Of a stretch of DNA of 6,802 bases, positions 1-6,802 are shown in pieces (the stretch's first letter is position 1; every line of letters starts with the position of its first letter). The notes under the pieces were generated by a model. It did not search any database. It saw only the letters and a list, made by a program, of their open reading frames with translations, and had not been told where the DNA came from. The position numbers and the translations under genes are program-made. Origin of the DNA: Planctomycetota bacterium (lineage in GTDB: Bacteria; Planctomycetota; UBA1135; UBA2386); the NCBI GenBank assembly GCA_016793305.1, contig JAEUHU010000558.1:1-6802 (forward strand), given 5' to 3'.

Positions 1-2
1 TG

Positions 3-857
3 CCGCTGCACGACCCGATCCGCGTCGCCGAGGAGTGGGCCGTGGTCGACAACCTCTCGCAAGGGCGCGCCGGACTCGGCGTCGCCTGCGGCTGGGTGCC
101 GAACGACTTCGTGATCGGCGGCAACCAGGAGCGCTTCCACCTCCGCAAGGAGGCGTTCGCCGACGGCATCGCGACCTTGCGCAAGCTGTGGCGCGGCGAA
201 TCGCACACCGTCGTGAACCCGCAGGGCGAAGCAGTCGCGATCCACACGCTGCCGCGGCCGGTGCAGAAGGAGCTGCCGCTGTGGATCACCGTCGCCGGCA
301 ACCCGGACACCTTCCGCCAGGCGGGCCAGCTCGGCGCCAACGTGCTGACCCACCTGCTCGGCCAGACCATCGACGGCCTCGCCGACAAGATCGCGCTCTA
401 CCACGACGCCTGGCGGGCGGCCGGCCACCCAGGGCGCGGCACCGTGACGTTGATGCTGCACACCTTCGTCGGCGAGCACGACGACGAAGTGCACGACCTC
501 GTGAAGGCGCCGATGAAGCGCTACCTGCAGGGCTCGCTGAGCCTCGCGTCGGCGCACATCTGCTCGGTGCCGTTCCTGCAGCACGCCGAGAACATCGACC
601 TGACCAAGGTGACGCCGCAGCTGGTCGACGAGGTGCTCGACGCGTCGTTCGAGAAGTACTTCCACATGAGCGGCCTGTTCGGCTCGCACGAGAAGTGCCT
701 CGACACGGTCGATCGCGCCGAAGCTGCCGGCGTCGACGAGATCGCCTGCCTGATCGACTACGGCATCGCGCCCGACGTCGTGATGCAGAGCCTCGACCAC
801 CTCAACGTGGTGCGCATCCTGGCGAACCCGAAGCCGCGGCACGCCGCGGCCCGCTGA
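3..857 (+). CDS. Luciferase-like flavin-dependent monooxygenase, MupA/Atu3671 natural-product type (5'-truncated)
   Basis: The reading frame is open from the window edge to TGA at 855-857 and gives 284 residues with no start codon, so the N-terminus lies outside. The GTG at 42 encodes an internal Val in the conserved stretch RVAEEWAVVDNLSQGR and is not a true start. Landmarks follow the luciferase-like TIM-barrel family closely: GWVPNDF, then LRKLWRGE, the RPVQKELPLWIT strand, AGNPDTFRQAG, GANVLTHLLGQ, LMLHTFVGE, and near the C-terminus GVDEIACLIDYGIAPD followed by LDHLN. These match the subgroup annotated as natural-product-biosynthesis luciferase-like monooxygenases, which occur alone or embedded in NRPS/PKS megasynthases. 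Such enzymes use reduced flavin and O2 to oxygenate a carrier-bound or free intermediate. Only about ten residues follow the conserved end, so this is a stand-alone enzyme or the last domain of a larger protein. The family call is firm; the substrate and upstream architecture are unknown. Confidence 0.9.
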   Translation, partial: PLHDPIRVAEEWAVVDNLSQGRAGLGVACGWVPNDFVIGGNQERFHLRKEAFADGIATLRKLWRGESHTVVNPQGEAVAIHTLPRPVQKELPLWITVAGNPDTFRQAGQLGANVLTHLLGQTIDGLADKIALYHDAWRAAGHPGRGTVTLMLHTFVGEHDDEVHDLVKAPMKRYLQGSLSLASAHICSVPFLQHAENIDLTKVTPQLVDEVLDASFEKYFHMSGLFGSHEKCLDTVDRAEAAGVDEIACLIDYGIAPDVVMQSLDHLNVVRILANPKPRHAAAR

Positions 858-1806
858 CGCAACGGCGGCACCAGACGTTCTCGCCCTTGCGGCGCCACTC
901 GGCCGGGCCGAACGCCAGCTCGGCCGGTGGGCTCTCTGGATCGAGCACCGCGTGCACGTGCTCGTCGCCTTCCGGAGTGACGGGCAGCTGGCCGCTCGGA
1001 CGCTGCAGCACGGTGGCCAGCGACGGGTTCACGAACACCGGCAGCGAGCAGCGCGTGCGTTCGAGCGACGGATTGACGACGCGGTGCGGTGTGGCGACGA
1101 GCCGGTTGCCCGAGACGTACTGCAGCAGTTCGCCGACGTTGACCAGCCAGGTCGCCGGTCGGCTCGGCACAGCACACCACCGACCGTCGGGGCGGCGCAC
1201 CTCGAGGCCACCGACGTCGTCCTGCAGCGTCAGCGTCACGAGGCTGAAGTCGAGGTGCGCCGCGACCCCGCGCAGCGCCGCCGTGCGATGCGGCTGCGGG
1301 TGGTAGCCGATGCCCTTCGCCAGCACGTACGGATCGTCACGGAGCCACCCGGTCGCCTCGAGCCCGAGGGCCGCGGCGAGCTTGTGCAGGAGCCGGACGC
1401 CGACGCGTTCGACGGCTTCGACGTAGGCCATCGTGCGCGCGCGGAAGCCCGGGTCGGCGGGCCACAGGTTCGGCCCCTGCAGGCGGACGTGCGGCGCCGT
1501 CGCCCACCGCTCGGCGGCGACCGGCGCACGTTCGCGGCCGAAGTGGATCTGCTCGCGGTGGTCGCGCTCGTTCTGCATGCGGCTGTGGCCGCGGAAGTGC
1601 GGAGAGTGCGCGATCGACAACCGCGCCTTGTCCACCTCGGGCAGCGCGAACAGCCAGCGGAGGTCGGCGAGCACGCGTTCGCAGGCCCCGAGCGGCACGG
1701 CCGCGTCGTGCAGCAGCACGGCCCCGTGCCGCTGGAAGGCCGCCAGCAGCGCTTCGGGCTCGGCGGCCGCGAGGTCGAACACCGGCCAGGTGGCCGCCGT
1801 GCTCAC
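802..1806 (-). CDS. Fe(II)/2-oxoglutarate-dependent dioxygenase, isopenicillin-N-synthase-like
   Basis: 334 residues, cytoplasmic, of usual length for the family. The N-terminal DIOX_N-type region starts with WPVFDLAA and includes RDHREQIHFG (82-90) and GPNLWP (111-116). The C-terminal jelly roll has the facial triad H184-x-D186 (AAHLDFS) and H241 (ATPHRVV). R252-x-S254 (RCSLPVFVNPS) is the expected 2-oxoglutarate carboxylate clamp. VNVGELLQYVSGNRL (222-236) is typical of IPNS/flavonol-synthase-like enzymes. The expected reaction is O2-dependent hydroxylation, desaturation or ring closure of a small molecule or peptide; the substrate is unknown. The start is GTG at 1806, overlapping the upstream stop in GTGA, with GAGG at 1814-1817 seven bases upstream. 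The longer open frame upstream has no plausible start that avoids the neighbouring gene. The last 18 residues are antisense to the monooxygenase gene end and are not conserved-looking. True 1-aminocyclopropanecarboxylate oxidase or IPNS function is not implied. Confidence 0.92.
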   Translation of the reverse strand: MSTAATWPVFDLAAAEPEALLAAFQRHGAVLLHDAAVPLGACERVLADLRWLFALPEVDKARLSIAHSPHFRGHSRMQNERDHREQIHFGRERAPVAAERWATAPHVRLQGPNLWPADPGFRARTMAYVEAVERVGVRLLHKLAAALGLEATGWLRDDPYVLAKGIGYHPQPHRTAALRGVAAHLDFSLVTLTLQDDVGGLEVRRPDGRWCAVPSRPATWLVNVGELLQYVSGNRLVATPHRVVNPSLERTRCSLPVFVNPSLATVLQRPSGQLPVTPEGDEHVHAVLDPESPPAELAFGPAEWRRKGENVWCRRCVSGPRRAAASGSPGCAPR

Positions 1807-2798
1807 GACGACGCCTCGACCGTGGCCCGCAGCCACGCCGCCGCCGCGTCGAGGCACGCCACGGCCTCGGGACTCGGCCCGACGGCGCCGAAGAACCCGC
1901 GCGCGCCCTTCCGGCGGAGCTTCTCGGTGTGCACGCCGCCCGCGAGTGCGGGCACCAGCACCGCGGGTTCGACCGGCAGGCTCTTCTCGTGCAGCAGCTC
2001 GAACAGCAGCCAGCGCGCGGCTTCGGCCAGCCCGCGGTCGGGTTCGCCGTCGAGCGCCGCACACCAGTCGTCGACGCGCAGCGCCCGGATCGCGGCGCGT
2101 CGCCAGCCTTCGGCGCTGGCGTGCGCGACCGCATGCGCCATCACCGCGCGATGCCGCCCCGACACCGGGTCGAACGTCTCGCCGTCGACGTACGGGTCCG
2201 GCACCGTGTGGCCGAGCACGGCGAGGTCCTCCCGCACCTTGTAGCGCGCGTGGTCCAGGTCGTGCGCGAAGAACTCCGCCGGCGAACGCACGGCGCCGTC
2301 GCCGAACGCCGGCCGCTCGACGACGCCGAGCGCATGCACAGGCCAGGCGCGAGAGCACAGCAGTTCGTCGCACGACAGCCGCCGGCTGGTCGGCAACAGC
2401 AGCACGAACGGCCACATCGCCAGCAGCGCGTCGAGCTCGCCCGCGACCTTCGGCACGTAGTGCGGTTCGCTGCCGACGGTGCGTTCCGCGACGTGGGCGG
2501 CGACCAGCCGCACGACGCGACGGTAGCCACAGCCGTCGCTGAGCCAGCGGCGCGGCACCCAGAACGGCCCGATCGCCGCGTAGCCTTCGCGGTGCAGTTG
2601 CTCGAGTTCCCAGGCGAGCACGCTGCCGGGCGGTGCCTCGCTGATCTGCAGGAACGGTTCCTGCCGCTGCACGCCGTCGTGCACCCACGCGTGGTTCTGG
2701 TCGAGCGACCAGTGCCGCAGCGCGTCGGCGAGGCGCTGCTCCTCGGCCCGGCGAGCGCGGCGTTGCAGGTCGTCGAGGCGTCCGATCACGCGGGGCAT
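1803..2798 (-). CDS. Unrecognised protein with HxxxH and ExxH motifs, coupled to the dioxygenase
   Basis: 331 residues; I do not recognise the family. There is no signal peptide or membrane segment; a short hydrophobic run at 129-135 is too short to span a membrane. The N-terminus is charged and helical (residues 7-28, Arg/Glu/Leu-rich). Candidate metal ligands cluster in the C-terminal half: HDLDH (179-183), H197, H222-x3-H226 in AHAVAHA, and E267-x2-H270 in FELLHEK. HDLDHA after an HALGV segment (155-159) faintly recalls HD-domain phosphohydrolases (HDxGH), but the Gly is Asp and the spacing is not convincing. The spaced His/Glu pairs in helical segments would also suit a helical di-metal protein. 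Both ideas are inference. The ATG at 2798 is chosen because the 20 residues added by an upstream TTG at 2858 are Pro/Arg/Ala-rich and unlike a domain, though neither start has a good Shine-Dalgarno. The stop overlaps the dioxygenase GTG, so a joint function is likely. Confidence 0.8.
   Translation of the reverse strand: MPRVIGRLDDLQRRARRAEEQRLADALRHWSLDQNHAWVHDGVQRQEPFLQISEAPPGSVLAWELEQLHREGYAAIGPFWVPRRWLSDGCGYRRVVRLVAAHVAERTVGSEPHYVPKVAGELDALLAMWPFVLLLPTSRRLSCDELLCSRAWPVHALGVVERPAFGDGAVRSPAEFFAHDLDHARYKVREDLAVLGHTVPDPYVDGETFDPVSGRHRAVMAHAVAHASAEGWRRAAIRALRVDDWCAALDGEPDRGLAEAARWLLFELLHEKSLPVEPAVLVPALAGGVHTEKLRRKGARGFFGAVGPSPEAVACLDAAAAWLRATVEASS
1814..1817 (-). promoter_or_regulatory. Shine-Dalgarno GAGG that decides the dioxygenase GTG start
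   Basis: On the minus strand GAGG lies seven bases before the GTG at 1806, inside the end of the upstream gene. Together with the four-base GTGA stop/start overlap this supports translational coupling and the non-ATG start. Confidence 0.65.
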
Positions 2799-2879
2799 GG
2801 GGCGAAGCGAGCCGCGGCCCGCCTCCGCATCATCCGGAGCACGCGGCCGGTGTGGCAACCGTTCCCGACGCTCCGCCGG
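2799..2879 (-). other. Short gap between protease stop and unknown gene; no clear terminator
   Basis: The gap contains an alternative TTG start at 2858 in frame with the downstream gene, and a weak 5-bp stem CTCCG/CGGAG (2823-2839) with no T-run. It has no convincing Rho-independent terminator or promoter, which is compatible with readthrough from the protease gene. Confidence 0.4.
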
Positions 2880-5800
2880 CTACTTCGCCGCCGGCGACTC
2901 GAAGGCGAGCTCGACCACCTGCCCGGAACGCAGCTCGACCTTCGCCCGCAGCGACAGCCGCTCGTTCGGGAACCGGCAGGCGAAGCCACGCTGCTGCTCG
3001 GCGAAGCGCCGCACGACGGCCCGGTCGTACTGGTCCTTCGCCGCGTAGCGCACCCGCACCACCTGCTGCAGCAGCGACTCCGGCCCGTCGACGTAGGCGA
3101 GCCAGTCGGCGGTGTCGGCCCCCGGCGCTCGCAGCGCATGGTCGCGCGTGGCGACGAGCCGCAGTTCGTCGGCCACCGGCTCGGCACCGACGACGAGCTC
3201 CTGCACCGGCAGCTCGACGCCGGGCTCCGACTCGAAGAACCCGGCGCTCACCCGGTGCGTGCCTGCCGGCACCCGGAAGCGCGCCATCGGATGCGGCACC
3301 AGCAGGATCCCGCGCACTCTGAGCGGATCGTCGCCGTCGCGATGCAGTTGGAAGTCCGACCGTTCTGCGATGGCCCATGCGCGCTGCAACGTGGCGTCGA
3401 GCTCGCACTCGATCTCCCACTCGCCGTTGCCCCAGTAGCGTTGGCTCGCCAGCAGCCGCACCGGCCGTTCGAGGTGGGCGGTGTCGACCGACAGGGTGCG
3501 TTGCTCCCCGCCTTGCAGCTCGACCTCGGCCTCGACCGGAAAGCCGCCGTCCTGCGGATAGGCGAGCGCGAAGCCGGTGTACGGCCCCCAGTGCCGGACC
3601 GTCGACCGCGCCGAGAACCCGGTGGCGGCGCAGCGCCACGTGACCGACCCCACCTGCGCCAGCACCGACTCGTGGCCGTCGAGCCACAGCGTGTAGCCGT
3701 TCTTCGGCCCACCGCCGGCAGTGCGCAGCACGCGCGCCACCAGCGGCGGCGTGGGCGGCGCCTCGCAGCGCACGCGCGTCTGCAGCGTGCTCGTGCTGCC
3801 GTCGGCAGCGGTCACCACCGCCGACACGAAGGACGGTCGCGCACACACCAGCGTCACCAGCTCGCCCGCGGTCGCCTCCCACTTGCCGACGACCACGCCG
3901 GTGCCTTCCTCGACGACCGTGTAGAGCACCTTCTGCTGGCGCGCGATCGTGTCGACGAGCCCCGCGAGTTGCAGCGTCACCCTCCAGCGTGGGCGCTGCA
4001 GCAACGGGTCGAAGCCGTCGAACTTCTCGCGCGCGCGCACCAGCAGCGGCACGACCGGCGCCACCGAACGGCCAGGCACGACGTCGGTCTCCAGGTGTTC
4101 GACGAAGCCGTCGTTGCTGGTGACGCTGACGCCGAGGCGGTAGCGCTCGTCCGCCGACGTGTCGAGCCACATCGAGTCCGGCCAGAACAGATGGTCCCCG
4201 ACGAGCCTGGTTCGCTCGAAGCGTCCATCGAGGATGGTCACCCAGTCCGTGGCCACGACGCGGTTGCGCACGTCTGCCGGACCGCCGAGATGGAGCCGTA
4301 GGCGCGGCCCGGAGCGATCCCGGTCGGGGTGCGTCTCACCGAGCTTCGGATCCGGGGTGAACGCGACCTGCTCGATCCGCAACGCCGAAGACGCCGGGGC
4401 GATCGGCATGTGCTCGAGCGATCGCTCGATCGTCCGTCCGTCGTACGTGATCACGGCAGTACCACGCTGCGGCCCGCGCGTTCGTGTCCAACCGACGAAG
4501 CGCTGCGCAACTTCGCCACCGGCCACGTCGACCGGTTCGAGGCCCTCGGCCGACGTCGTGCGCCACGTCACCGCCGCGACCTTCGCCAGCGCCTGCCGGT
4601 CGCCGAGCAACCGCCACGCCACGTCCCAGGTCGGCACGCCGTCGACGAGGCCGACGAACCGATCGAACGCTTCGACGTCGAGCCGCTCCTCGCCCGAGAA
4701 CCGTGTCGTGGCGCCCAGCTCGATCCATCGCTCGACCGGTGTGCGCCGCCCGTCCATCCAGACGATCGTCGCCGTGGCCCGGAAGTCGCGCACGGCGGTG
4801 CAGCGCAGCGGCCACCCGAACGTGCTCTGCCGCACGATGCGGTTCCCACCGGAGAGCCACGGATCGAGTTCCCATTCGACGTGGTCGACCTCGAAGGTCC
4901 TGGCGTGCGGCATGTCGAGCGACACCGTGACCGCTTGCACGGTCCGCCCGGAAGCGTCCTTGCTCATCGCGCGGGCCTGCCACTCGATGCACGGTTCGTC
5001 GCGCACGACGTCGGTGAACTGCGGCTCCAGGTGCAGGCGCTTCCTGCCGCCGTCGCGATAGGTGATCTCGCAGTCGATCGGCCCGGCGACGTTGCTCCAC
5101 CCGAGCGCACTCGAATACGCCGGCGTCGAGCGGGCCCCTTCGCCGCCTTCCTTGTACTCCGACACGGGTTCGAGCCGATCCATCGCCGGCTTCGTCCACT
5201 TCACCGCGACGATGTCGGCGACGTCGCCAGCCGGCACGTCGAGTCCTGCCTCGAAGTACCAGACCGGCGTCTTGCCGTCGGCGAGCCGTCCGGAGTACTG
5301 ATCCCGGAAGTGGATCTGGGCCGGCCGGAAGTCGGCCACCGGCACCGGCCCTTCGACCTGCCCTTCGACCCGGTGCGTCGCCCCATCGGCCAGCTGCAGC
5401 ACGGCGACCAGCGGCGTCGGGTTCTTCTGCGTGCCGGCGACCAGCGCGAAGCCGTTCGCCGCTTCCTCCGCGCGCACCCGGCGCGGCTTGCCGGTCTCGT
5501 CGCTCCAGAACCAGTCGACCGCCTTCACGTCGGCGAGCAGCGTCCGCGGCCCGCGCAGGTCGGCGAAGAACGTGTAGGTGAACTTCTGCGCGTTGGCGTC
5601 GAAGCGCACCGCGTCGGCGTGGCCGCGGATCGCCAGCGCCTCGAGCGTCGCCGGCGCCGGCACGACGCTGCCGTCGTCGTTGCGAACGACCTTCTCCTCG
5701 ACGTCGAGCAGCGTGATCGCCCAGTTGCAGAACACGCCTTCGTGCTCGCCGGCGAGGCGGATGTCGTCGAACAGTTCGTAGGCGACCTGGCAGAAGCCGC

Positions 5801-6569
5801 GCCGGGCCCACTTCGTGCCCCAGCTGTTCATCACCAGGAAGGTGCCCTCGCCGTCGTCGTAGCCGACGATGCACATCGCGTGCTTGCCGTGCGGTTGCCC
5901 CGGCTGGCGCAACTGTTCGTCGCGGTCGAACAACGCGCGGTCGTACTTGGGGAAGCGCCCCGACAGGAAGATCGGGTTCACGTGCGCACCGAACACGACG
6001 ATCTGCCGCCGCTGCAGCGCGCGCCGGATGCCCTGGCGGTCGACGACGAGATGCGCATCGCGCAGCGGGAACGCCTTCGCCTCGGCACGCGCACGCTCGT
6101 TCGGGGCGGTGCGGAAGTCGCCGGGGCGATACGGCTCGGTCGCCAGCGTCGACGCGCCCTGCTCGCACAGCACGCGCACCGCCTCGACGAAGCTCGAGCC
6201 TTCGTCCTGGCCGTGGTTGATCTGGTTGTAGAGGAAGCGCGGCGAGAACACGCGCTCGGGGCGATCCGGGAGCCAGCCCTGGTCGCGCGCCTCGAGGTAG
6301 CTCTTCGCGGCGTAGGCGATCGCCCACGTCGTGCAGTCGTTCATCTGCTGCTCGCCGACCGGCGGCAGCCACCGGCGCAGGTCGACGCGCGGCTCCTCGA
6401 TCAGTTCGATGCGCGGCGGAGTGAACTTCGGCACTGCGGCGAGCTGAGCCGTGGTCGGGTCGACCGAGCCGGTCTGGGCCAGCAGCCTCGACGTGGGCAG
6501 CGAGCCCATGAACACCGCGAGCAAAGCGACCGACCACCAGTGCCTGAAGATGCGCATTCGCCCCAGCAT
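2880..6569 (-). CDS. Secreted papain-like (C1) cysteine protease with nine tandem beta-rich, YEATS-like repeats
   Basis: 1229 residues. A Sec-type signal peptide (1-31) is followed by a short linker and a C1 papain-family peptidase domain (about 63-290). Catalytic residues are C79 in MNDCTTWAIAYA, H230 in HGKHAMCIVGYDD and N248 in MNSWGTKW; the oxyanion Gln is probably Q74 or Q75. FSPRFLYNQIN (108-118) is also family-typical. Residues about 311-1227 form nine diverged repeats of roughly 100 residues, described separately. No classical I29 prodomain fits between the signal peptide and the catalytic domain. The product is probably exported to periplasm, envelope or outside, with the array acting as a binding or spacer region; substrate is unknown. 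There is no lipobox, LPxTG, or obvious C-terminal sorting domain. An ATG at 6557 (residue 5) is an equally possible start and gives a more compact signal peptide; neither has a clear Shine-Dalgarno. The gene is continuous, so the frame is certain. The protease call is strong, the repeat fold is inference. Confidence 0.93.
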   Translation of the reverse strand: MLGRMRIFRHWWSVALLAVFMGSLPTSRLLAQTGSVDPTTAQLAAVPKFTPPRIELIEEPRVDLRRWLPPVGEQQMNDCTTWAIAYAAKSYLEARDQGWLPDRPERVFSPRFLYNQINHGQDEGSSFVEAVRVLCEQGASTLATEPYRPGDFRTAPNERARAEAKAFPLRDAHLVVDRQGIRRALQRRQIVVFGAHVNPIFLSGRFPKYDRALFDRDEQLRQPGQPHGKHAMCIVGYDDGEGTFLVMNSWGTKWARRGFCQVAYELFDDIRLAGEHEGVFCNWAITLLDVEEKVVRNDDGSVVPAPATLEALAIRGHADAVRFDANAQKFTYTFFADLRGPRTLLADVKAVDWFWSDETGKPRRVRAEEAANGFALVAGTQKNPTPLVAVLQLADGATHRVEGQVEGPVPVADFRPAQIHFRDQYSGRLADGKTPVWYFEAGLDVPAGDVADIVAVKWTKPAMDRLEPVSEYKEGGEGARSTPAYSSALGWSNVAGPIDCEITYRDGGRKRLHLEPQFTDVVRDEPCIEWQARAMSKDASGRTVQAVTVSLDMPHARTFEVDHVEWELDPWLSGGNRIVRQSTFGWPLRCTAVRDFRATATIVWMDGRRTPVERWIELGATTRFSGEERLDVEAFDRFVGLVDGVPTWDVAWRLLGDRQALAKVAAVTWRTTSAEGLEPVDVAGGEVAQRFVGWTRTRGPQRGTAVITYDGRTIERSLEHMPIAPASSALRIEQVAFTPDPKLGETHPDRDRSGPRLRLHLGGPADVRNRVVATDWVTILDGRFERTRLVGDHLFWPDSMWLDTSADERYRLGVSVTSNDGFVEHLETDVVPGRSVAPVVPLLVRAREKFDGFDPLLQRPRWRVTLQLAGLVDTIARQQKVLYTVVEEGTGVVVGKWEATAGELVTLVCARPSFVSAVVTAADGSTSTLQTRVRCEAPPTPPLVARVLRTAGGGPKNGYTLWLDGHESVLAQVGSVTWRCAATGFSARSTVRHWGPYTGFALAYPQDGGFPVEAEVELQGGEQRTLSVDTAHLERPVRLLASQRYWGNGEWEIECELDATLQRAWAIAERSDFQLHRDGDDPLRVRGILLVPHPMARFRVPAGTHRVSAGFFESEPGVELPVQELVVGAEPVADELRLVATRDHALRAPGADTADWLAYVDGPESLLQQVVRVRYAAKDQYDRAVVRRFAEQQRGFACRFPNERLSLRAKVELRSGQVVELAFESPAAK
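2889..5639 (-). repeat. Nine tandem protein repeats of about 100 residues (prokaryotic YEATS-like beta-sandwich candidates)
   Basis: Aligning residues 311-1227 by eye gives nine copies. Each has a lead strand, then a core strand ending in V-x-aromatic. The aromatic anchors are W353, W458, W566, W669, W776, Y883, W978, F1073 and Y1175, spaced 105, 108, 103, 107, 107, 95, 95 and 102 residues. Each copy closes with a strand, a turn and a strand; the turn is D-G in copies 1-6 (D395, D506, D606, D710, D820, D923) and G-G, P-G and S-G in copies 7-9. Copies 7 (YTLWLDGHESVLAQVGSVTW) and 9 (YVDGPESLLQQVVRVRY) are the clearest and resemble prokaryotic YEATS-like domains, where a strand ending in dGP is followed by a helix or turn and V-x-Y. 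The YEATS LHxTF acyl-lysine pocket signature is absent in all copies, so ligand binding of that kind is not predicted. The periodicity is directly seen; the fold name is inference, and a generic Ig-like fold is the main alternative. Confidence 0.65.
5700..6383 (-). other. C1 papain-type catalytic domain
   Basis: Encodes residues about 63-290 of the protease. The order is Gln/Cys (VGEQQMNDCTTWA, C79), FSPRFLYN, GSSFVEAVRVLCEQGAS (typical mid-domain helix with Gly turn), H230 in HAMCIVGYDD, and N248-S-W-G. The usual papain QGxCGSCW block is altered: only five residues separate Q74 from C79 (six in papain) and the structural Cys before the nucleophile is missing. Other domain cysteines are C135, C233, C260 and C281. 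Confidence 0.88.
6477..6569 (-). other. Sec signal peptide of the papain-like protease
   Basis: Residues 1-31 show the classic tripartite pattern. There is a basic start (R4, R6, R9), a hydrophobic core WWSVALLAVFMG (11-22), and a polar region ending in SRLLA before Gln32. The likely cleavage is after Ala31. No Cys follows, so a lipoprotein is excluded, and there is no twin-arginine motif. Confidence 0.8.
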
Positions 6570-6680
6570 CGGCCGGATCGAACCCCGCGCCAGAGTCCGG
6601 CCGGGCCGAACCCGGCGATCGCCCGCGAACGGAGTCCCGACGCTCGCGCCGCGAGCCTCCGCTCGCCACCATGCGCGCCC
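6570..6680. promoter_or_regulatory. Divergent intergenic region with clustered palindromes
   Basis: These 111 bases separate the protease start from the TerC-like start and must hold promoters for both unless transcription begins elsewhere. Three perfect palindromic elements are present. One is a 6-bp-stem hairpin GCCGGG-CCGAA-CCCGGC (6600-6616). The second is a 10-bp palindrome GGCGATCGCC (6614-6623). The third is a 7-bp inverted repeat with a one-base centre, GCTCGCG-C-CGCGAGC (6642-6656). Any could be an operator or leader hairpin, but self-complementary words are common at this GC content. No convincing -10/-35 pair is visible. Confidence 0.4.
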
Positions 6681-6802
6681 ATGACGCTGTTCTCCGCCGC
6701 CGGACTCTCGACGCTGTTGATGTTGATCCTGCTGCAGGCCGTGCTCGGCTTCGACAACCTGCTCTACATCTCGATGGAGAGCCAGCGCGTCGCCGAACGG
6801 GA
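6681..6802 (+). CDS. TerC-family integral membrane protein (3'-truncated)
   Basis: The ATG at 6681 opens a frame that runs off the window edge after 40 codons. A hydrophobic first helix (LSTLLMLILLQAVLG, residues 9-23) leads straight into FDNLLYISMESQRV. This matches the start of TerC/Alx/YkoY-type proteins, whose first transmembrane segment carries an E-x-x-L-x-x-D-N motif. Family members are multi-pass inner-membrane proteins tied to tellurite resistance or metal (notably manganese) export. Here the motif Glu is Gln (Q19-A-V-L-G-F-D24-N25). No other in-frame ATG, GTG or TTG lies close upstream, and I see no good Shine-Dalgarno; an overlapping ATG at 6671 is in another frame. Only the first helix is visible, so the family call rests on a short stretch, but it is distinctive. 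Confidence 0.72.
   Translation, partial: MTLFSAAGLSTLLMLILLQAVLGFDNLLYISMESQRVAER

Follow-up and report, generated by a model that had tools for sequence, protein, structure and literature searches.

YEATS domains recognise acylated lysines in the chromatin of eukaryotes, and cytoplasmic pYEATS proteins belong to anti-phage or conflict systems; the source of pYEATS is reportedly the work of Burroughs and Aravind in 2020. Both are already known, pYEATS as a family described in Pfam and YEATS as a reader domain that has been studied thoroughly. A 2021 review raises the question of acetyl-lysine readers in bacteria and counts YEATS domains as an open case (PMC8556138). The window analysed here, the whole 6,802-nucleotide stretch of DNA from a Planctomycetota bacterium (GCA_016793305.1, contig JAEUHU010000558.1, positions 1 to 6,802), carries on its minus strand an open reading frame (2880..6569) whose 1229 amino acids (aa) comprise a C1 protease and nine degenerate YEATS units. 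It is probable that the product is a protease that is exported, and that its binding tail, once of three domains, lost its old cage and grew into what would now be a nine-domain, YEATS-derived scaffold.

The nine units, of about 100 residues each, occupy residues 309-1229 (2883-5645, all on the minus strand), the C-terminal three quarters of the protein, and nearly match the nine-fold array that an earlier note on this DNA had placed at 2889-5639. When the array profile was compared with itself, the top off-diagonal match scored 302.3, spanning 664 columns and shifted by two units, against 12.6-19.7 for 15 column-shuffled copies, 24.2 for the reversed profile and 12.0 for the protease region. 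The repeat is significant because this score far exceeds those of the shuffles, and not from motif counting; the nine units share ancestry. The core aromatic residues stand at positions 353, 458, 566, 669, 776, 883, 978, 1073 and 1175, which is exactly the 95-108 residue spacing that had been read from the sequence. The same note saw a V-x-aromatic core in all nine copies: the aromatic residue is there nine times but the V only seven, with T-D-W in unit 5 (4062..4391, residues 727-836) and S-D-F in unit 8. As proof of the repeat, a count of V-x-[WYF] was rejected, being at chance level (12 in the array, a shuffle mean of 8.3, and 199 of 2000 shuffles reaching 12). The D-G at the end strand of units 1-6, also noted earlier, is present in the unit sequences, and so is the DGxESxLxQV segment common to unit 7 (3471..3758, residues 938-1033) and unit 9 (2883..3176, residues 1132-1229); these two are closest to one another and form the top-scoring of the 36 unit pairs (86.2).

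The units have strongly diverged from one another, with no homogenisation, and the outlier is unit 8 (3177..3470, residues 1034-1131), the most degenerate of the nine, which scores 13-25 against each other unit. Conservation across the family is 0.54-0.56 in units 1-3 versus 0.39-0.45 in units 4-9, and W353, W355, W458, D506-G507-G508 and D569-P570 in the first three units are near-invariant. A start motif, [RKQHD][YFW]xG, marks 62 of 100 even units and 2 of 124 odd ones; in this protein the even type comprises unit 2 (5004..5336, residues 412-522), unit 4 (4392..4703, residues 623-726), unit 6 (3759..4061, residues 837-937) and unit 8, which has kept its RYWG start. A two-unit, odd/even module is suggested, strongly by this motif and weakly by the split of unit-to-unit scores.

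The YEATS ancestry of the units, proposed at first from the sequence alone, is upheld by the pYEATS profile and by a family of shorter relatives. On the whole protein Pfam PF20305 (pYEATS) scores 34.8 bits against a cut-off of 26.9 (1.5e-8), and 21 of the 25 members of the nine-unit family match it at E <= 0.1. The bridge to bona fide YEATS domains is the short family (P0030-P0050, n=21), Planctomycetota-type proteins with an export-signal-like N-terminus, a C1 protease and usually three units. As a rule two of the three units are canonical YEATS domains, which match human YEATS2 by sequence; PF03366 (YEATS) is matched in 20 of the 21, and some members have been automatically named 'C1 family peptidase' or 'transcription initiation factor IIF auxiliary subunit', the latter properly the designation of eukaryotic YEATS proteins. 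The short-family locus L091 (175-2130, +) encodes YEATS units with conserved LHP[TS]F and GWGxF, and two members of 389 aa, P0049 and P0050, combine the C1 protease with just one canonical unit, possibly a one-unit form.

Units 1-3 of the window protein have their counterparts in the short family's three-unit tail. The two align one-to-one over 282 columns (E 6.5e-32), and the best single matches pair unit 1 (5337..5645, residues 309-411) with s1 at 87.3, unit 2 with s2 at 67.8 and unit 3 (4704..5003, residues 523-622) with s3 at 93.4. Against the nine-unit profile the 19 short tails, taken singly, all score 113-179, whereas no tail from a control set of 46 other C1 proteins exceeds 26.2. The protease stretch was obtained from 91 of 92 proteins (P0008 fell out), and two trees were built from it. 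In the careful tree the nine-unit proteins form a single clade (98/88) nested in the short family and join P0044 and P0045 with support of 100/99. The quick tree comprised 71 proteins (24 nine-unit, 21 short and 26 of the 46 others) and the careful tree 14 nine-unit proteins, 19 of the 21 short ones (without P0046 and P0047) and 11 of the 46 others. Forcing the short family to be monophyletic made the tree 12.8 log units worse (p-AU, from the approximately unbiased test, 0.042). The nine-unit form arose within the short family, once as far as the tree shows, and the alignment, the decoy tails and the protease tree together argue for common descent of the units with canonical YEATS domains.

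What has not come through this descent is the pocket. In human YEATS2 the cage is formed by H259, S261 and Y262 in LHx[ST][FY] and by W282 to F285 in GWGxF (PMC5651844). Neither motif occurs in any of the 25 nine-unit proteins examined (0/25 for each), and the acyl-lysine cage motifs are gone from all of them, as the earlier note had supposed of the lysine-reading pocket. By contrast with this loss, LHx[ST][FY] is found in 19 of the 21 short proteins and GWGxF in 20, both motifs occurring in two units in 16 of them. In aligned columns of the short family the His is kept in 19/21 (s2) and 17/19 (s3) and the Trp in 19/21 (s2) and 19/19 (s3). In the nine-unit family the LHPTF of canonical YEATS domains has an LDPWL-like remnant in unit 3, with Asp for His in 24/25 and Pro in 24/25, and in unit 2 the alignment column of the cage Trp holds W in 10/25, the full motif being missing. 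On these features the units of the window are YEATS descendants and presumably not working YEATS readers; the short family has the sequence features of a reader and is a candidate for one. Weakened motifs also occur among short-family members (P0041, P0047, P0048 and a 634-aa frame in L083), so that pocket loss may have occurred more than once.

The protein is probably, as predicted from its sequence, an exported papain-like cysteine protease. The database copy, P0001, begins at residue 5 (1225 aa), and this residue, at base 6557, is the likely start. From there runs a signal-peptide-like N-terminus (6477..6557, -), with a likely cleavage, read by eye, between A31 and Q32. By a hydropathy heuristic, such a hydrophobic N-terminus is present in 22 of the 25 family members and in 22 of 731 internal control stretches, which bears out a location outside the cytoplasm. 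The papain fold is supplied by the C1 peptidase domain (5697..6401, -; about residues 57-291), which matches Peptidase_C1 in Pfam at 6.2e-7 and in which the oxyanion Gln and the catalytic Cys, His and Asn (Q74, C79, H230 and N248), equated with the positions of papain by eye, are each present in 25/25. The distance from Gln to Cys is five residues here and six in papain. The NCBIfam models gave zero matches to the protein.

AlphaFold, run on 25 sequences, models nine beta-sandwich units with a mean predicted local distance difference test (pLDDT) score of 87.7 and a predicted template modelling (pTM) score of 0.60. Read by eye from the DSSP assignment of the model, eight units follow one order, in which a pair of strands leads into a short helix and then five more strands; unit 5 has one extra short helix and unit 8 one strand fewer. 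Unit 7 modelled alone, from an alignment that excluded 9 of 25 divergent unit-7 rows, reached a pLDDT of 89.3.

In the favoured explanation, the ancestral three-unit tail may have stood next to the protease as a binder of ligands that were acylated or modified in some other way; it would then have grown from three to nine units, perhaps two at a time, with loss of the cage. The nine-unit tail would be a scaffold of set length, possibly of repeating odd/even pairs. Using surfaces outside the old pocket, it would either dock the protease on a partner in the envelope or outside the cell or keep it at a distance from that partner. Growth from three to nine and a fixed length thereafter are suggested by the constant length, the conserved units 1-3 and the start motif of the even units. 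The length is known from a homolog search across 5.8 billion proteins that scored the top word-sharing candidates (7985 for the nine-unit query, 7991 for the short family): besides P0001 at least 24 homologs span 80-100% of the query, with 27-86% identity in the aligned part, and measure 1168-1252 aa, although lengths of roughly 676-2150 aa were admissible.

Two of the alternatives share YEATS ancestry with this explanation; the three are not exclusive and the likelihoods given to them overlap. The first is that the tail serves in substrate recognition, some units having acquired a new pocket or surface, and that the protease still selects modified proteins. It would accord with the retention of the cage in two units of most short proteins and with the fact that units 1-3, which adjoin the protease, are the most conserved and hold the near-invariant residues. 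However, the cage motifs are missing from every nine-unit protein, and the conserved positions may simply be core residues, which leaves this a possible but doubtful account. Similarly tentative is a wider suggestion, that two pocket-bearing YEATS domains of the short family read acyl-lysine or another acyl group beyond the cytoplasm and hand the proteins so modified to the protease, and that the nine-unit lineage dropped the reading and became a scaffold. The second alternative is that the nine units are a multivalent adhesive array binding cells or polymers, as in bacterial adhesins, for which the export-signal-like N-terminus and the many tandem beta-sandwich units would be suitable; the earlier note had thought of a stalk that is either adhesive or a spacer. 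This is unlikely for three reasons: first, a spacer or scaffold would fit the near-constant length of the homologs better than would a variable adhesin. Second, none of the 46 proteins measured has a C-terminal membrane segment. Third, the units are strongly diverged and unhomogenised.

That the units are ordinary fibronectin type III (FN3)- or immunoglobulin (Ig)-like stalk domains unrelated to YEATS, and the pYEATS match a chance one between beta-sandwiches, is highly improbable: the profile bridge leads to canonical YEATS units within the same architecture, the family is nested among YEATS carriers in the protease tree, and the low-scoring decoy tails include those of the FN3-domain proteins P0026 and P0027. 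Moreover, no FN3 profile is among the Pfam matches at E <= 10 for the whole protein or the nine units, the HMMER filters dropping most matches above about 0.1. Membership in an anti-phage or conflict system, which a pYEATS domain adjoining TIR-like sequence in locus L086 (by eye) might suggest, can be given hardly any weight, given the signal-peptide-like N-termini, the absence of PADLOC matches for P0001, P0030 and P0034 and the lack of common neighbours at eight loci.

Several observations weigh against the scaffold explanation or against parts of it. Of the single units only 7, the best match, and 9 are picked up by pYEATS (21.2 and 19.3 bits), and both are below the cut-off. The second unit of the short tail, s2, scores higher with unit 4 (91.8), for which it is the best single-unit match, than with unit 2, with which it aligns. 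The result of the AU test is borderline, and the test was post hoc, as the quick tree had already shown the nesting. The odd/even split by unit-to-unit scores ranks only 8 of 126, and unit 9 of P0002 is cut short. With a pTM of 0.60, the model does not fix how the units are placed relative to one another along the chain. In the structure search YEATS, FN3 and other Ig-like domains were tied, a type 9 secretion C-terminal domain coming nominally first; of the fold proposed in the earlier note, the nine beta-sandwich units stand in the AlphaFold model, and on the outcome that would have refuted it, a better structural match to another fold, this search decides neither way, as it does not tell YEATS apart from FN3 and other Ig-like domains. 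Finally, the four neighbour proteins gave zero tblastn matches at 1e-4 in the eight related loci (seven nine-unit and L008, short), some of which have little flank. No neighbour gene that might point to a partner is common to the eight loci.

The eight best related loci are labelled Planctomycetota (L001-L004, L006 and L008, the last carrying the short form), Phycisphaerales (L007) and Opitutae (L005); the Opitutae-labelled contig encodes a nine-unit-type protein of 34% identity. Planctomycetota or Planctomycetes are also the source names of P0012, P0016, P0018, P0021 and P0025. In the class of the L001 genome, surveyed with at most four candidates scored per genome, the family profile has a match at 1e-20 in 17 of 154 genomes. 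In 12 of these the match falls in frames of 1218-1682 aa, with incomplete coverage of the profile in four of the 12; the remaining five have the protease alone or a partial match. In viral contigs four pattern stretches and zero relatives were found.

Around the protease gene, the window holds a luciferase-like monooxygenase (3-857, +; PF00296, 1.9e-29), truncated by the window start, and a frame with a 2-oxoglutarate-Fe(II) oxygenase (805-1923, -; PF03171, 8e-19; PF14226, 8.1e-12), presumably akin to enzymes of the isopenicillin N synthase type. An open reading frame of 330 aa (1806-2795, -) with zero Pfam matches at 0.01 separates it from the protease, and beyond the protease a divergently oriented gene for a membrane protein begins (6681-6802, +), TerC-like by eye, whose 40 residues have zero Pfam matches. 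Elsewhere, in other genomes of the group, a pYEATS domain is followed by the TIR-like sequence in L086 (1420-2145, +) and by an unassigned region in L092 (1024-2466, +). The proteins at L085 (1087-1731, +), L088 (928-1731, +), L095 (586-1749, +) and L096 (1474-2175, -) end in a pYEATS-like domain and have what looks like a membrane segment close to the N-terminus, all of these assignments being by eye.

The locus leads to bacterial YEATS domains that keep the acyl-lysine-holding residues of YEATS2 and that are apparently exported and joined to a protease. Such a joining of YEATS to a papain-like protease was not found among the matches listed in the open-licence literature, as far as titles and abstract beginnings go. 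It is the short family that makes the question of a bacterial acyl-lysine reader testable, and this is the more testable discovery of the present analysis; if true, it would be a bacterial acyl-lysine reader located outside the cell interior. The two forms also compose a series in the fate of a reader domain, the short family usually having two copies with a pocket and the nine-unit family nine without one, and with the LDPWL of unit 3 as the probable scar of LHPTF. Because this series is legible, binding by the intact copies and a new role of the worn-out copies are both directly testable.

In comparison with known systems, the units of the window differ from the eukaryotic YEATS domains (YEATS2, Taf14, Yaf9, GAS41, AF9 and ENL) in lacking the cage motifs, in being apparently exported and in having no chromatin context. 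Xylellain (PDB 3ois) is likewise a bacterial papain-like protease, but its solved chain of 291 residues leaves no room for such a tail. The window protein resembles pYEATS (PF20305) in that the whole protein is above the cut-off; however, other pYEATS loci show LHP[ST]-aromatic and GWG motifs, whereas the window units are without them and no unit passes alone. The closest likeness is to the short C1 protease-YEATS family, which has the same export-signal-like N-terminus, C1 protease and YEATS-type tail matching units 1-3, but with three units (one in P0049 and P0050) in place of nine and with its cage motifs mostly kept.
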